From the IMG/VR virus record IMGVR_UViG_3300044712_000146, positions 1-26,521 of that record: a stretch of 26,521 nucleotides of DNA; one strand, written 5' to 3'. Every line of letters begins with the position of its first letter. The first letter of the stretch is position 1. The notes under the pieces are model-generated. The model made no database searches. It was not told the origin of the DNA and saw nothing but the letters and a program-made list of their open reading frames with translations. Position numbers and translations under genes: made by a program. Shown one piece after another: positions 2 through 24,097 of the stretch. The stretch comes from a virus.

Positions 2-550
2 GTCAGCCAATGGTTCACAAAACCAAACACCGCCGTTTACGATCTCGGATGCTCCACAGGAAAACTCCTAGAACGGATCCCACACGACGGCTGGAAGATC
101 GGCATCGATCAGTCAACGAACCTGCTCCCAAAGTCGCATGACCTAACGGACTACATCGCTGAAGATTTACGACACTTCGCCTTCCGACACAAAGCATCGC
201 TCGTGCTATCGATCTTCACCCTCCAGTTCATTCCGCCAACGGATCGGCTCGCCATCCTCGAAAAGATCTACGACTCGATGACCGACGGAGGAGCCTTCAT
301 CTGGGCAGAGAAGGTCAGATCCGAGTCTGGCTTTTGGCAAGAGATTCAAACCTTCGCCCACTACGACTACAAAGCCAACTACTTCACACCGCAAGAGATC
401 CTCGCCAAAGAACACGATCTCCGCAAAATGATGTGGCCCAACACCACCGCCGAAAACATCCACCTAGCATCACAGGCAGGTTTCGACATAACACGATCAG
501 AAGCAATCTGGAAGTTCCACAACTTCGAGTGCCTAATTCTAGTAAAATAA
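2..550 (+). CDS. CmoA-like SAM-dependent methyltransferase family protein (5' partial)
   Basis: The frame is open from the left edge, so the start is outside the window and 182 residues are visible. A class I methyltransferase SAM-binding motif VYDLGCSTGKLLERI lies at about nt 35-79, followed by FTLQF (nt 215-229), then RLAILEKIYDSM, DGGAFIWAEKV and a C-terminal HNFECLILVK. This order matches CmoA as I know it (LGCSTG, FTLQF, LLxKIY, PGGALxLSEK, C-terminal FNFGSLVALK). CmoA makes carboxy-S-adenosylmethionine from SAM and prephenate for the tRNA wobble base cmo5U34. Family membership is inferred from these motifs; the actual substrate is not shown and a different small-molecule or tRNA methyltransferase is possible. 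Its GATC-rich composition matches the bulk of the phage. The stop codon overlaps a putative promoter repeat for the next gene. Confidence 0.72.
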   Translation, partial: VSQWFTKPNTAVYDLGCSTGKLLERIPHDGWKIGIDQSTNLLPKSHDLTDYIAEDLRHFAFRHKASLVLSIFTLQFIPPTDRLAILEKIYDSMTDGGAFIWAEKVRSESGFWQEIQTFAHYDYKANYFTPQEILAKEHDLRKMMWPNTTAENIHLASQAGFDITRSEAIWKFHNFECLILVK

Positions 551-567
551 AACACAAGTTCTATAAA
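543..567 (+). repeat. Direct repeat copy A, probable promoter of the DNA methyltransferase gene
   Basis: The 19-nt block TAAAATAAAACACAAGTTC (543-561), one mismatch, then ATAAA recurs at 1395-1419, so 24 of 25 bases agree. TAAAAT (543-548) fits an actinobacterial -10 hexamer (TANNNT) and overlaps the stop codon of the upstream gene. The promoter role is inferred from composition and position; no convincing -35 box is seen. Confidence 0.6.
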
Positions 568-597
568 AGATTATCTTCGACAAAAGAAAAAAGGGAA

Positions 598-1368
598 ATG
601 ACAAAAACATCAGGAAACAACACAGGGCTAGAACTAAACAAGATTTACATCGAAAACTGTATCGACACCATGAAAAAAATGGCAGACAACTCCATAAACC
701 TGACCGTTACTTCCCCCCCCTACGATGACCTTAGAACCTATAACGGCTACTCATTCGACTTTGAAACAATAGCCTCTGAACTCTATCGAGTAACAGCCCA
801 AGATGGCATCGTTGTCTGGGTTGTCGGCGACGCAACCAAAAACGGATCCGAAACAGGTTCAAGTTTTAGGCAAGCGCTCTACTTTATGAACTTAGGTTTC
901 AAACTACACGACACCATGATCTACGAAAAAAACTCGCCAGCCTACCCAGCATCACGCAATAGTAACCGTTACACGCAAATTTTTGAGTATATGTTTGTGT
1001 TCGCAAAAGGAACTGTGCCAAAACAACTAATTTGTGACAAACCAAATAAATGGGCAGGACACAAGGACTTTTCAGGAAAACTAAAAAATCCAGTCCCAGA
1101 CTTTAGCCCCCGAAATAACATTTGGCGTTATGTCACATCATTCAACGGAATCAAACACCCAGCGCCATTCCCAGAACAACTCGCTTATGACCACATCGTG
1201 TCGTGGTCAAAAAAGGAAGATGTCGTTTATGACCCATTCATGGGAAGCGGAACAACGGCAAAGATGGCGCTACTCGCAGAAAGAAACTTCATCGGAAGTG
1301 AGATCAGCGAAGAATACGCACTTATAGCCAACGAGCGCCTACAAAAGATGGACACAAAAAACAAATAA
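598..1368 (+). CDS. DNA methyltransferase, beta class (N4-cytosine or N6-adenine type)
   Basis: This is a 256-residue protein. Catalytic motif IV TSPPY is at residues 38-42 and the SAM-binding motif DPFMGSGTT is at 212-220, close to the C-terminus. That order (catalytic motif first, target-recognition region between, SAM motif last) defines the beta class of DNA amino-methyltransferases (N6_N4_Mtase family). SPPY is commonest in m4C enzymes but also occurs in m6A ones, so the modified base is uncertain. I chose ATG 598, just after AAGGGA; longer versions of the frame would overlap the CmoA-like gene by more than 200 nt. No restriction endonuclease is adjacent, so this is more likely an orphan enzyme for self-protection or regulation. 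It has only three GATC sites, is AT-richer than its flanks, and is bracketed by 25-nt direct repeats, which suggests acquisition as a separate cassette. Confidence 0.88.
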   Translation: MTKTSGNNTGLELNKIYIENCIDTMKKMADNSINLTVTSPPYDDLRTYNGYSFDFETIASELYRVTAQDGIVVWVVGDATKNGSETGSSFRQALYFMNLGFKLHDTMIYEKNSPAYPASRNSNRYTQIFEYMFVFAKGTVPKQLICDKPNKWAGHKDFSGKLKNPVPDFSPRNNIWRYVTSFNGIKHPAPFPEQLAYDHIVSWSKKEDVVYDPFMGSGTTAKMALLAERNFIGSEISEEYALIANERLQKMDTKNK

Positions 1369-1371
1369 ACA

Positions 1372-1393
1372 CCTTTTTAGAGCATCAAAAAGG
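1372..1393. terminator. Small inverted repeat after the DNA methyltransferase, possible terminator
   Basis: A perfect 7-bp stem CCTTTTT (1372-1378) / AAAAAGG (1387-1393) with an 8-nt loop begins 3 nt after the methyltransferase stop. On the + strand it is not followed by a T-run; on the - strand a T-rich stretch does follow, but there is no - strand gene. It may close the methyltransferase cassette. Confidence 0.35.
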
Positions 1394-1394
1394 A

Positions 1395-1419
1395 TAAAAT
1401 AAAACACAAGTTCGATAAA
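1395..1419 (+). repeat. Direct repeat copy B, probable promoter of the LexA-like regulator
   Basis: This is the second copy of the repeat at 543-567, differing at one position. TAAAAT (1395-1400) is the candidate -10. A start near 1407 would give a short leader containing the ribosome-binding site AAAGGGA (1418-1424) six bases before ATG 1429. Confidence 0.58.
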
Positions 1420-3704: not shown

Positions 3705-4953
3705 CCAGTTACCGCCAGACAACACAGACTGGCGAGTGTTCATGGCGATCGCAGGGCGTGGCTTCGGTAAAACGAAACTCGCCGCAGAATGGCTCGCTAA
3801 ACAGGCGATCCGTAAACCAAACTCTCGCTGGGCTGTAATCGCTAAAACCTTTGCGGATGTGCGTGACACTTGCTTTGAGGGCGACTCTGGGCTAGTCAAC
3901 ATCCTTAGAGAATACGGAGTGCTACGCAACTACAACAGATCTATGGGCGAGATCTTCCTAATCAATGGATCCAAGATCAAGGGCTTCTCAAGTGAGGAAC
4001 CTGACCGCTTGCGTGGCCCACAGCACGACGGTGGATGGTGTGACGAGTTCGCATCCTTCAGCGACTTTAGTGTTTGGGATAACTACATTATGGGCGCACG
4101 ACTAGGCGACCACCCCCAAACCTTGATCACCACTACCCCCAGACCACTAAAGCGACTGCGTGAACTCTCCTCTAAGGAAGGCACGATCACAGTCCGAGGA
4201 TCCACCTACGAAAACTCAGACAACCTAGCCCCCTCGTTTATTGAGGAACTCCGCCTCTCCTACGAAGGCACACGCCTCGGCAGACAGGAACTCTACGGCG
4301 AGATCCTTGAAGATGTCGAAGGCGCACTCTGGACTAGCGGAGGCATCGAAGATGATCGAGTCAAAGAGGCACCCCCTCTGGCTCGTATCGTGGTGGCGAT
4401 CGACCCAGCCGTAACCTCGGGCGAAAACTCAGACGAAACAGGCATAGTCGTAGCAGGTATCTCCACCGATGCCCACTACTACATCCTCGAAGATCTCTCC
4501 ATGCGAGGCACCCCACAACAATGGGCGAGAGTCGCCGTCGATGCCTTCCACCGTTGGAAGGCTGACCGCATCGTAGGCGAAACAAACAACGGAGGCGACA
4601 TGATCGAACTCCTGCTACGCCAAGTCGATCCAGTCATCCCTTACCGTAAAGTCACAGCCACTCGAGGCAAACTCGTGAGAGCAGAACCAGTCGCCGCCCT
4701 TTCAGAACAACACCGCCTACACATGGTCGGACTATTCGAGAAGTTAGAGGAGCAGATGTGTACATTCACCCCAGACTCCGATGTGTCACCTGACCACCTC
4801 GATGCGATGGTGTGGGCAGTCCACGAACTAATGGAGGGACAGTCGGCTATTATGGGACTAGCGGCGTTAGCGAAGTTCTGCCTATCTTGTAGGATGCCAG
4901 CCCCTCGCACCGCAACAGTTTGCCCATCGTGTCATCAACCGTTAGGGGAATAG
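3607..4953 (+). CDS. terL: Terminase large subunit with C-terminal zinc ribbon
   Basis: This 448-residue packaging ATPase-nuclease has Walker A GRGFGKT at residues 50-56 and Walker B GGWCDEF at 142-148. The RNase H-like nuclease has D266 (VAIDPAV), E325 (VGETNNGGD) and D399 (HLDAMVWA). It drives DNA into the prohead through the portal and makes the end cuts. Unusually, the extreme C-terminus carries C425-x2-C428 and C439-x2-C442, a zinc ribbon. The start is uncertain: ATG 3607 has GAGG upstream but overlaps the small subunit by 98 nt; ATG 3625 and GTG 3673 are in-frame alternatives. I prefer 3607 because the N-terminal helix before ARPNQLPP is normal in this family. Confidence 0.93.
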   Translation: MTQPTSMPKSLNSLPSLIAARQVKWERLQARPNQLPPDNTDWRVFMAIAGRGFGKTKLAAEWLAKQAIRKPNSRWAVIAKTFADVRDTCFEGDSGLVNILREYGVLRNYNRSMGEIFLINGSKIKGFSSEEPDRLRGPQHDGGWCDEFASFSDFSVWDNYIMGARLGDHPQTLITTTPRPLKRLRELSSKEGTITVRGSTYENSDNLAPSFIEELRLSYEGTRLGRQELYGEILEDVEGALWTSGGIEDDRVKEAPPLARIVVAIDPAVTSGENSDETGIVVAGISTDAHYYILEDLSMRGTPQQWARVAVDAFHRWKADRIVGETNNGGDMIELLLRQVDPVIPYRKVTATRGKLVRAEPVAALSEQHRLHMVGLFEKLEEQMCTFTPDSDVSPDHLDAMVWAVHELMEGQSAIMGLAALAKFCLSCRMPAPRTATVCPSCHQPLGE

Positions 4954-4962
4954 GATCTAGGT

Positions 4963-7374
4963 ATGGGAATACTTGACAACTTTGCGGAGCGTGTAGCGAA
5001 ACAGATCGTGAAGGCTTCGCCTATCGCTACCCCGATCAGTAACGCCCAAATCCAACAGGCTCTCGGAGTAAACGCACAGGGCTACGGCAACAGCGTCGGC
5101 TTACCTCGTGACCCAAACATGGCCAATGTGCCATTCACCCCCGGTGTGCCTATCGTTCCCGGTGCGATCAACCCAGTACGCCCAGACGGTCGCCCAGATC
5201 CACGCCGTTACGAGTACCAAGTTGCTCAAAACATCAACATCACCGAAACTCGCCTAGTCCCATTCAAGACTTTGCGATCAGCCGCAGATCAGATCGACAT
5301 TCTCCGCCGTTGTATCGAAGTTTTGAAGCAAAAGATGGTGGCTCTCGACTGGGACATCGTTCTCGGCGAGGATGCTGTCGAAAAAGTGATGGCTGAAACT
5401 GGCGAAAAGTCAAACATCAAGGCGATGGCGATCGCTAAAGAGAAGTACACCGCCGAGATCAATAGGATGCGCCAGTTCTGGGAACAGCCAGATGTCGCCA
5501 ACGGTTTGCTATTCGCTGACTGGCTAAACATGGCTTTGGAGGAGATCCTCGTAATCGACGCTTGGGCTGTCTGGCCTCAAAAGACTGTCGGTGGAGATCT
5601 CCTCGGTTTACAGATCCTCGACGGCACCACTATCAAGCCTCTGATCGATGACCGTGGTATGCGCCCAGCCCCACCAAACCCAGCCTTCCAACAGATCCTT
5701 TACGGCTTCCCACGCTCAGAGTTCTCGGCACCTGTCGAAGGTGAAGATGCTGATGGTGAGTTCCTCGCAGACGAACTCGCTTACATGGTCAAAAACCGTC
5801 GAACCAATACTGTGTATGGTTTCAGCCCTACCGAGCGAGCCTTGACTCTCGCAGACATCTATTTGCGTCGTCAACAATGGCTACGAGCAGAATACACAGA
5901 CGGTGTTCTGCCTGAACTCATGTTTGAAACCGATGCCAACTTTGGTAACAACCCAGATTTGCTTCGTGCTTACGAAAATGTTTTGAATGACGACCTCGCA
6001 GGTCAAACTGAACAGCGTAAACGAGCAAGGATCTTGCCAGCCGGTATCAAGCCTGTACAGTTTGATGGCTATGGTGAAAAGTTCAAGGATGTTTTAGACG
6101 AATACCTAGTGAACTCGATCTGTGGTCACTTCGGTGTGCTACCTACCGAGATCGGCTTTGCCCCGAAGGGTGGCTTGGGTGGATCAGGCTTCCAAGATGG
6201 TCAGGCTGAATCCTCTGAAGTGATCGGTGTGCTACCGCTCGCTAACTGGGTCGGTCGTATGATCTCGAACCTGTCGTATGTTTTCGCAGGTATGCCTCGT
6301 GAACTTGAGTTCAAGTTCCAGCCTTCTAAGCGTAACGAGGGTGTTGGTTTGGCTCAGGAGCAGGACATCAAGCGCAAGAATGGTGGCTTGACTCTGAACG
6401 AACAGCGTAGCCGTGACGGTTTGCCTTTGATTGATGCTCCTGAAGCGGATCAGCCGATGATCGTTACTTCCGCAGGTGCGTTTTTCTTGACTGACGAAGG
6501 TTTGAAGCCTGTGGGCGGTGAGGAAGCATCCGCTCCAGAGCAGGAACCTACCGAGGGCGATAACGCTGAGGGTGAGCCTAAGCCTGAGCCTACGGTCGAG
6601 GAGATCCGTGAGGGTGAAGATGATTTTGAGAAGGGCGTTACCGCTGATCTTGAAAAGTATGACCCTGAACAGGCAAGAGATAGCAAAACAGGCAGGTGGA
6701 GTTATGGTGGGCTTGTAGGTTCACTCGCCGTTGACGCTCGTGCCAAGGCTATCGCCGCAGAGCCATCGATTACCGAAGCGATGAAGGGAGTCGCCGCTAA
6801 ACACGGTGGCGAACTAACTGGACTCGAATACCGTATCAAGAGCGAAAACTCGATCGCTCGCAAGATCGGATCCGATGCCAAGAACGATTATGGTGTCACC
6901 CAAAAGAGTGATCAGGCTGAATGGGAAGCGGCTGCTCGTGCTTCAGCCGCCAAAATGTCTGACACAGTTCGCTACACGATGCTTGCCTCTGAAAAGAACT
7001 ACGCAACTATGGCGAAGAATGTTGTCGCTGATCTGGAATCGCAGGGCTATCAGGCTAAAGTCAAGAACTACTGGCAAGAGGGATCCAACTATAAGGGCAT
7101 CAATGTGGCTCTCGTGGATCCACAGGGTATGCGCGTCGAGTTACAGTTCCACACCGCATCTAGTTTCAAGATGAAGGAAACTGTAAACCACCCGATCTAT
7201 GAGCGTTACCGTAAACTCGCCCCCGGTCAAAAGAGTAAGGTCGCTAGGGAACTAAACGCCCAGATGGTCAAGAACTGGGAAGGCGTGAGAACTCCTCCGT
7301 ACATCAAAACTTTCGGTGAGCCTAAGATCGGCAAGATGATAGACTTAGAAGTGGAGGAGGGGAACTATGAGTGA
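4963..7374 (+). CDS. Portal protein with C-terminal RelA/SpoT-like domain
   Basis: This protein has 803 residues; actinophage portals are usually about 450-550. Residues 1-500 match phage portals of the DUF935/SPP1-like kind: DILRRCIEVLKQKMVALDW, the VIDAWAVWP strand, YGFSPTERAL, and the C-terminal LTLNEQRSRDGLPLID turn. An acidic stretch then leads to a linker KYDPEQARDSKTGRW (residues 565-579). A separate domain follows with EYRIKSENSIARKI (622-635), DTVRYTM (667-673), GSNYKGINVAL and ELQFHT (726-731). These fit the RelA/SpoT nucleotidyltransferase pattern (R-x-K...SI-x-RK, D...R, Y-x-G-[IL]-[NH], E-[LVI]-Q-x-x-T). Twelve portal subunits would place these domains inside the capsid. Whether it makes alarmones or is a toxin is not shown. 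Confidence 0.85.
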   Translation: MGILDNFAERVAKQIVKASPIATPISNAQIQQALGVNAQGYGNSVGLPRDPNMANVPFTPGVPIVPGAINPVRPDGRPDPRRYEYQVAQNINITETRLVPFKTLRSAADQIDILRRCIEVLKQKMVALDWDIVLGEDAVEKVMAETGEKSNIKAMAIAKEKYTAEINRMRQFWEQPDVANGLLFADWLNMALEEILVIDAWAVWPQKTVGGDLLGLQILDGTTIKPLIDDRGMRPAPPNPAFQQILYGFPRSEFSAPVEGEDADGEFLADELAYMVKNRRTNTVYGFSPTERALTLADIYLRRQQWLRAEYTDGVLPELMFETDANFGNNPDLLRAYENVLNDDLAGQTEQRKRARILPAGIKPVQFDGYGEKFKDVLDEYLVNSICGHFGVLPTEIGFAPKGGLGGSGFQDGQAESSEVIGVLPLANWVGRMISNLSYVFAGMPRELEFKFQPSKRNEGVGLAQEQDIKRKNGGLTLNEQRSRDGLPLIDAPEADQPMIVTSAGAFFLTDEGLKPVGGEEASAPEQEPTEGDNAEGEPKPEPTVEEIREGEDDFEKGVTADLEKYDPEQARDSKTGRWSYGGLVGSLAVDARAKAIAAEPSITEAMKGVAAKHGGELTGLEYRIKSENSIARKIGSDAKNDYGVTQKSDQAEWEAAARASAAKMSDTVRYTMLASEKNYATMAKNVVADLESQGYQAKVKNYWQEGSNYKGINVALVDPQGMRVELQFHTASSFKMKETVNHPIYERYRKLAPGQKSKVARELNAQMVKNWEGVRTPPYIKTFGEPKIGKMIDLEVEEGNYE

Positions 7375-22512: not shown

Positions 22513-23082
22513 ATGTCGCCTGTACTTTCAACTTTTGGTAACTTTACCGTTTCCGCTTTCGGTTTCGGTAAGGGCGGTAAAGCAGATTTTGAATTGATCC
22601 AAACTCAAACAACTGCCAGCGCTGTTGCTTCCGTAACTTTTACAGGTATCCCCACGGTTTATCGGCATCTTTTGATCCGAGGCGCTTATTTGATCAATGG
22701 AACAGTTCGTGTGGCTGTGCGCTTGAATGGCGACACAGGTAGCAACTATTCGTGGCACACGATGGATGGTAACGGTTTGAATAACACCGTATCAACCGCA
22801 AATAACTTCACTACCAATATGATCCAAGGCGGATTCACTACTAACAGATTTGTGGCTAACACTAACTCTCCACTTTTGGTCGAGATTCTTGATTATCAGC
22901 AAGCCAAGAATAAAACTGTTACGACTTTTACAGGATATCAAGATGACACTTCGGGTAGTCGTATAGCCGTTGGAACTGGTTTATGGAACTCAACTGCCGC
23001 AGTAACATCTGTAACTGTGTTAGCGTCAACAGGAAACATAGTGGCAGATAGTCGCTTTTCTTTGTATGGAATTAGGGGCTAA
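22513..23082 (+). CDS. Tail fibre-like beta-sandwich protein, paralog 1 of 3
   Basis: This 189-residue protein starts one base after the previous stop, without a clear ribosome-binding site, so coupling is likely. Beta-rich core: VASVTFTGIPTVYRHLLIRG near residue 40, a variable middle with LDYQQAKNKTVTTFTGY, and a closing SRFSLYGIRG. The same start and end blocks recur in the next two genes. The N-terminal 35 residues are unique. Position at the tail tip, between the minor tail protein and the lysis genes, suggests a receptor-binding component. GATC is near background (9 sites in 22513-24097). Confidence 0.62.
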   Translation: MSPVLSTFGNFTVSAFGFGKGGKADFELIQTQTTASAVASVTFTGIPTVYRHLLIRGAYLINGTVRVAVRLNGDTGSNYSWHTMDGNGLNNTVSTANNFTTNMIQGGFTTNRFVANTNSPLLVEILDYQQAKNKTVTTFTGYQDDTSGSRIAVGTGLWNSTAAVTSVTVLASTGNIVADSRFSLYGIRG

Positions 23083-23084
23083 TT

Positions 23085-23546
23085 ATGCCTATCGGAGTAT
23101 CCGCTTTAGTAGGACTAGCAAACACGACTCTGGCATCCAATGTCACGACCGTAACTTTTAGTTCGATTAGTCAAGCGTACAGAGATCTAATGTTGGTATC
23201 TGCCGTTGTGGGCGATGGAATAGACATTAGGTTCAATGGAAGTACGTCAACTTATTGGAATGTTTATGTAACAACTCAAGCCGGTCCAACTGCTTCAGCC
23301 AGTTCAAGTTCAAGTTTTAACCTCGGCGTTGGTGGTACGGGTACAAACCAAATGAGTGTTGTCAACATCTTTGATTACACAGCCGCGACTCAAAAATTGA
23401 TTTTGGCTGAATTGGGTGTTGCTTCTAATTTTAATATTTTCCGTATGGGCCGCTGGGATGGCACAGCCACGGTGACATCTATCACTATTACAGGAACGCT
23501 AAACGCTGGATCTACTTTTGCTTTGTATGGGGTGTCATCAGTATGA
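23085..23546 (+). CDS. Tail fibre-like beta-sandwich protein, paralog 2 of 3
   Basis: This 153-residue protein begins two bases after the previous stop. It repeats the family pattern: TTVTFSSISQAYRDLMLVSAV, a Ser-rich middle (PTASASSSSSFNLG), VVNIFDYTAATQKLILAE, then TVTSITITG and a terminal STFALYGVSSV. Compared with paralog 1 it lacks the N-terminal extension, so it is a nearly bare domain. It overlaps the third gene by ATGA. Function as in paralog 1 is inferred from similarity and position. Confidence 0.6.
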   Translation: MPIGVSALVGLANTTLASNVTTVTFSSISQAYRDLMLVSAVVGDGIDIRFNGSTSTYWNVYVTTQAGPTASASSSSSFNLGVGGTGTNQMSVVNIFDYTAATQKLILAELGVASNFNIFRMGRWDGTATVTSITITGTLNAGSTFALYGVSSV

Positions 23547-24097
23547 CAATGACTCTAATTTCAACTTTGACTGCTAACGGTACAAGTAATGTGATGTCTT
23601 TTACAGGTATCCCTTCAACTTACACCGACCTAATTTTTTTGATCTCTGGTAGAGGCGTGACCGCCGCAACTCAAACCGACCTATTCATGTATTTTGGAAC
23701 TACTAACGGCACAAATAGAACAGGCTACAACAGAATAGGTATGTGGCCAAACAGCACAATAATTTCAGCATTTTCAGGATCCAATGACACTCAATGGAAC
23801 CTTCAGCAAACCATTCCTGCGACTAACGCAACCGCAAATACTTTCAGCAACCTTCGAGTTCACCTAATGAATTATGCGACTACTGCGGTAAAAAATGTCG
23901 TTGTTCGAGGCGGTAATGAAAACTTTGCGGCCGCAAACTATCACATAACGATGACAGGCAATAACAATGCCGCATCCAATTTGTTTGCTATAAACTCGGT
24001 GACTTTTGAATTAGGTTCAGGCATAAACTGGATTTCAGGTAGCAGTATTTCGCTTTATGGTTTGACTAGAGGATCTGGCGGAGCCACCGTTTCATAG
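23543..24097 (+). CDS. Tail fibre-like beta-sandwich protein, paralog 3 of 3
   Basis: This 184-residue protein begins within the previous stop codon (ATGA); ATG 23549 is an alternative. The family pattern is again present: SNVMSFTGIPSTYTDLIFLISGRG, the inner strand VHLMNYATTAVKNVVVRGG, then AINSVTFELGSGINWISGSSISLYGLTRG. It is richer in Asn and Thr and has an AT-richer coding sequence than the tape measure region. It probably packs or acts together with the other two copies, or represents an alternative receptor-binding variant. Confidence 0.6.
   Translation: MTMTLISTLTANGTSNVMSFTGIPSTYTDLIFLISGRGVTAATQTDLFMYFGTTNGTNRTGYNRIGMWPNSTIISAFSGSNDTQWNLQQTIPATNATANTFSNLRVHLMNYATTAVKNVVVRGGNENFAAANYHITMTGNNNAASNLFAINSVTFELGSGINWISGSSISLYGLTRGSGGATVS

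Follow-up and report, generated by a model that had tools for sequence, protein, structure and literature searches.

A repeat-flanked DNA methyltransferase gene in an uncultured phage: possible insertion at a cmoA-lexA junction

How did a single DNA methyltransferase gene come to lie between two almost identical copies of a short repeat in a phage genome? The window, i.e. the whole stretch of DNA analysed here (26.5 kb), is a virus record without a completeness estimate. Its source is an uncultured phage, and the host is probably an actinobacterium, which we take the WhiB gene in the window to indicate. The gene order is CmoA-like, methyltransferase, LexA-type DNA-binding domain gene, RusA, WhiB, SSB, terminase and structural genes. 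A search of the window for tRNAs and Rfam families found none. The first three genes are encoded on the plus strand. The gene at 2-550, whose 5' end lies beyond the window, encodes a CmoA-like SAM-dependent methyltransferase (phrog_4752 tRNA methyltransferase, E 5e-47; TIGR00740, E 5e-28, which is below the curated cut-off of this model). It is followed by the DNA methyltransferase gene (598-1368; ATG at 598; PF01555, E 1.9e-41). The gene at 1429-1647 (ATG at 1429) encodes a 72 aa protein that comprises only a LexA-type winged-helix DNA-binding domain (PF01726, E 8.1e-17; PDB 3k2z LexA, E 3.6e-11).

A sequence-only reading had placed two 25-nt repeats on the plus strand at 543-567 and 1395-1419 with 24 of 25 positions identical, and both coordinates and identity were borne out. 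The copies are 852 nt apart and share an exact core of 19 nt (543-561 = 1395-1413), which is the only exact direct repeat of at least 17 nt in the window and hence the longest. A chance match of A/T-rich low-complexity DNA might be considered, since both copies are located in A/T-rich intergenic DNA. However, the longest exact repeat in 100 dinucleotide shuffles of the window measured 12-17 nt. When the two AT-rich stretches around the copies are compared, their best-matching 25-mers agree at 24 positions, a value that never exceeded 19 in 300 local shuffles. These shuffles already refute such a match, whose probability is negligible. As the identity exceeds that of the shuffles, the two copies appear to share a common descent. 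The segment between them contains neither a transposase nor a bounding pair of inverted repeats, and insertion of a transposable element was rejected. With up to three mismatches allowed, no third copy of the core was found elsewhere in the window, and the exact 19-mer had no match in the viral contig collection. The relatives fetched are contigs of 37-40 kb, which suggests that the early region is partly missing from the window. Additional repeat copies could therefore be present in the missing part.

Both copies precede start codons, copy 2 that of the lexA-like gene (ATG 1429) and copy 1 that of the methyltransferase gene (ATG 598), at distances of 9 and 30 nt. Copy 1 is composite: It opens with 8 nt from the terminal codons of the CmoA-like gene, and the remainder belongs to the methyltransferase leader (551-597, plus strand, GC 28%), in which AAAAAAGGGAA is located immediately 5' of the ATG. 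The stretch AAAGGGAAA is common to this leader and the leader of the lexA-like gene.

This composition provides a polarity. The CmoA-like gene ends with V-K-stop (GTA AAA TAA, 542-550, plus strand), and the last 8 nt of these codons are the opening 8 nt of copy 1, where they are coding. In copy 2, directly 5' of the lexA-like gene, these 8 nt are not part of a coding sequence. A [VI]-K-stop terminus is conserved in the ~45 CmoA-like homologues (33-59% identity), with one exception among the complete ends. Due to this near-universal terminus, the piece TAAAATAA in copy 1 can be regarded as old cmoA coding sequence and its counterpart in copy 2 as a non-coding remnant of the cmoA 3' end. When one repeat unit is removed, the distance between the cmoA stop codon and the lexA ATG amounts to 26 nt, a normal spacing. 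Common descent of the copies together with the non-coding remnant in copy 2 makes an ancestral cmoA-repeat-lexA junction the simplest history. We lean, with moderate confidence, towards an insertion of the methyltransferase gene at the cmoA-lexA junction accompanied by a duplication of this junction. Conserved terminal codons of a neighbour that are caught in one of two repeats may thus indicate the direction of an insertion even without a known empty-site relative. Two points weaken this history. The remnant comprises just 8 nt and is A/T-rich, and microhomology-based joining of cmoA to a pre-existing repeat could mimic the polarity. Furthermore, if the insertion were very old, an identity of 24/25 would require selection or gene conversion.

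For the insertion, the following sequence of events can be envisaged. A phage-borne orphan DNA methyltransferase gene would have entered the junction between the CmoA-like gene and the gene for the LexA-domain protein, and recombination would have duplicated this junction, i.e. the last 8 nt of cmoA and a short leader. The likeliest route might be that two sibling phages, of which one carried cmoA-leader-methyltransferase and the other cmoA-leader-lexA, underwent an end-overlapping illegitimate recombination. The stacked product would be cmoA-leader-methyltransferase-(cmoA remnant)-leader-lexA, so that both genes would keep a leader, presumably with their own expression signals. The enzyme presumably methylates the phage DNA, with predicted N4-cytosine specificity, and could protect it against host restriction.

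An insertion does not imply recent arrival. The gene had been described as compositionally foreign, and its GATC counts were given correctly: three in 598-1368 versus 11 in 1-550 and four in 1429-1647. A foreign moron of deviating composition, imported recently and cleanly removable by repeat recombination, would fit the 24/25 identity of repeats separated by 852 nt as well as the GC content of 43% versus 51% overall (0.432 for the gene, 0.511 for the whole window). However, low GC and GATC scarcity are typical of the gene family. In 85% of the distinct methyltransferase homologues, GC is below that of the own contig, and on contigs with more than 46% GC, the gene deviates from its contig by -0.056 on average. 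A regression on contig GC predicts 0.459 for the methyltransferase gene (residual sd 0.035), compared to the observed 0.432. On this basis, the low GC was not accepted as indicating import. GATC averages 1.0 per homologous gene, hence three are not low for the family, and other 771-nt stretches of the window also hold three or fewer. Moreover, GATC is no restriction-linked marker here, since the window contains 322 versus 275 expected, i.e. it is not avoided and even slightly over-represented.

Other words are avoided. In the window, AGCT (0 observed/114 expected), TGCA (0/64), ACGT (1/66), CGCG (4/112) and TTAA (3/63) are excluded; the 6-mer GTCGAC (0 versus 8.6 expected) and the non-palindromic GGAC are depleted, too. 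Site avoidance is known from many phages (PMC6286503). None of the five excluded words occurs in the methyltransferase gene, whereas 76 methyltransferase homologues contain 1-22 of them (mean 10.2) and none has zero. A count of zero was not reached in any of 20,000 synonymous shuffles of the gene (mean 8.9), and recoding with the codon usage of the window yielded a mean of 11.3 excluded words. The cassette does contain GCGC, TCGA and CATG, words excluded by other phages. From this purging it follows that the gene has either been resident for a long time or originated from a phage that faced the same restriction; recent acquisition from an unrelated genome is incompatible with it. Together with the lack of a sigma-70 promoter and a canonical terminator, this renders the recent foreign moron very improbable. 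Instead, the insertion is probably real, the gene is not recent foreign DNA, and the locus reflects fairly ordinary phage gene shuffling. From the excluded words of a genome, the duration of a gene's residence under its restriction pressure can be roughly gauged. Polarity and excluded words together allow "inserted" to be told apart from "recently foreign"; by composition alone, the two would be mixed up here.

Three consecutive genes at 22513-24097 are better candidates for recent import than the methyltransferase gene. Their GC3 is 0.36-0.39 versus 0.47 for the methyltransferase gene, and of the excluded words in the window, the single ACGT, one CGCG (of four) and two TTAA (of three) fall within them. 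In many TerL relatives (L082-L161), the excluded 4-nt palindromes are different ones and number up to six per relative, for instance ACGT/CGCG/GCGC/GTAC/TCGA in L083 and AGCT/CATG/GATC in L091, as if the lineages had met different sets of restriction enzymes.

The methyltransferase itself is an intact N6_N4_Mtase that matches PF01555 over its full length (profile positions 1-221 of 221). The order of motifs is of the beta type, with motif IV (TSPPY) at residues 38-42 and motif I (DPFMGSGTT) at residues 212-220; aligning 10 homologues showed both to be invariant or almost so. The dN values versus homologues are 0.16-0.24 at saturated dS. Intact conserved motifs and low dN identify the protein as an enzyme under constraint. 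Its best PDB match is 8s9m, a cytosine-N4 methyltransferase, and this closest solved structure and the SPPY motif suggest a predicted N4-cytosine type. About 10 additional N-terminal residues (MTKTSGNNTG, 598-627) are absent from most homologues; the distant relative L078 contains a similar GNNT stretch. The closest homologues (60-80%) are encoded on viral contigs, and cellular ones reach at most 59% except for one 52-residue fragment at 62%. The exclusion patterns yielded no clear candidate for the recognition site: CGCG is excluded in the window, but in none of the 39 testable contigs with close homologues.

Do the repeats have a function? A regulatory role is a live rival and compatible with an insertion history. 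In this view, the repeat would act as a functional regulatory module, be it a promoter, an operator or a start-associated element. Selection would keep it identical before two early genes, and the methyltransferase gene would simply be co-regulated. We regard this as possible, though rather doubtful. The location of both copies directly 5' of start codons agrees with it, as do other repeats found just before two start codons each in the terminase relative L128 and in contig L067. Start-associated sequences are, in addition, documented in cluster K mycobacteriophages (PMC3203893). One candidate function is an operator for the LexA-domain protein, whose gene follows copy 2: The dyad TAAAAC-N4-GTTC[TG]A at 548-563 and 1400-1415 differs from the SOS box of Gram-positive bacteria, TCGAAC-N4-GTTCGA, at three and two positions. 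However, matches with up to three mismatches are frequent (27 in the window versus 13 expected from shuffling), and with three and two mismatches the dyad is suggestive only and not significant in the window. A LexA-box operator was not adopted. Two copies in 26.5 kb are few for a module, and a module alone does not explain why the repeat includes the conserved end of cmoA.

Expression signals do not strengthen the regulatory role either. Each repeat had been credited with a candidate -10 box, but a scan confined to sigma-70-type promoters detected no site at either copy. Of the proposed moron that was inserted or duplicated with its promoter, the insertion and the duplicated leader are supported by the cmoA terminal codons being non-coding in copy 2, and the sigma-70 promoter was not found. 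The small inverted repeat that was said to close the gene exists as an A/T-rich hairpin (CCTTTTT...AAAAAGG, 1372-1393, plus strand) that folding predicts at -4.9 kcal/mol (z -4.4). It lacks terminator features: With only two G-C pairs and without a T-run it is non-canonical as an intrinsic terminator. A terminator scan yielded no terminator-like site 3' of the methyltransferase gene and did not report this hairpin.

The repeats in L128 and L067 differ from those of the window. L128 carries a long imperfect repeat (~2640-2727 and 3825-3913) with an exact 18-nt core, CACTTTAGATTTCTCTTA, directly 5' of two early genes, which looks like a repeated leader or promoter. L067 has a 21-nt repeat on its minus strand, ATACCTAGAAGGGGTACAACA (2735 and 3485 in reverse-complement coordinates). 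Each copy lies 21-23 nt 5' of a start codon, and one of the two genes resembles that of a sliding clamp.

An insertion could have left relatives in which the site is empty. Viral contigs were scanned with the exact 19-mer and with the terminase, CmoA-like and LexA-like protein sequences. The nearest phages had about 67% terminase identity, which is not close enough for a comparison of the site, and no genome with a cmoA-lexA junction and no cmoA or lexA beside a close methyltransferase homologue was found. This counts against the insertion history. None of 80 terminase relatives encodes a close methyltransferase homologue within the stretch fetched. Several carry other methyltransferases (25-41% identity) at varied positions of the early region, just 5' of terS in L083, L088, L100 and L101 and 5' of rusA in L089 and L096. 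Both facts indicate that the methyltransferase gene is accessory, in agreement with an insertion.

A parallel case, which by analogy would speak for the insertion history, is L073. Here, a perfect 24-nt repeat, AAGGAGAATGGGCGATGAGTTTAA (4240-4263 and 5010-5033), encloses a methyltransferase gene of the same family (58% identical). The repeat comprises the 3'-terminal codons (KENGR-stop) of the upstream gene as well as the Shine-Dalgarno sequence/RBS and the ATG of the next gene. A gene enclosed by a repeat pair at start-associated positions was seen four times among ~210 loci, in the window, L073, L067 and L122. These loci were picked around methyltransferases, terminases or CmoA-like genes, and therefore no enrichment is claimed. 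Repeat-bracketing as a general habit of the methyltransferase family was rejected, as it was found only in L073 and the window among 75 loci scored and was not significant versus random pairs. It is conceivable, albeit improbable, that methyltransferases of this family repeatedly enter phage genomes by junction stacking – in the window and independently in L073 – which would copy the last codons and the leader of the upstream gene, and that such cassettes are gained and lost as restriction pressure shifts.

Lambdoid morons are single extra genes between two genes, with their own promoter and terminator and an odd composition linked to import. The cassette in the window is likewise a single extra gene between two others, perhaps with its own expression signals. 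In contrast to lambdoid morons, it has neither a recognisable sigma-70 promoter, the signal type scanned, nor a U-tract terminator, its composition is explained by the gene family, and it is located on the same strand as its neighbours. The enzyme resembles the N6_N4 DNA methyltransferases of phrog_67/PF01555 in its full-length Pfam match and intact motifs, and differs from most members by its ~10 extra N-terminal residues. The start-associated sequence (SAS) of cluster K mycobacteriophages, GGGATAGGAGCCC, is present in many copies 3-7 bp from start codons (PMC3203893). Like SAS/ESAS, the repeats in the window are short, on one strand and just 5' of start codons of non-structural genes, and the stop codon of the upstream gene may fall within the repeat (PMC3203893). 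They were nevertheless not classified as SAS/ESAS, as the sequence is different and A/T-rich, the distances to the ATG are 9 and 30 nt and only two copies are present in the window. Lactococcal 936-type phages acquired orphan methyltransferases between conserved genes, variable among relatives, that are reported to protect against restriction (PMC4190342). The window gene, too, is a solitary phage DNA methyltransferase gene between two other genes. Unlike in the window, a term search of the 936-type description (PMC4190342) gave no duplicated junction. The methyltransferase of the window further differs by its early-region location, with the cmoA-like and lexA-like genes as neighbours, and by an activity that is predicted. 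Acquired orphan phage methyltransferases are already known, and the window provides another such example.
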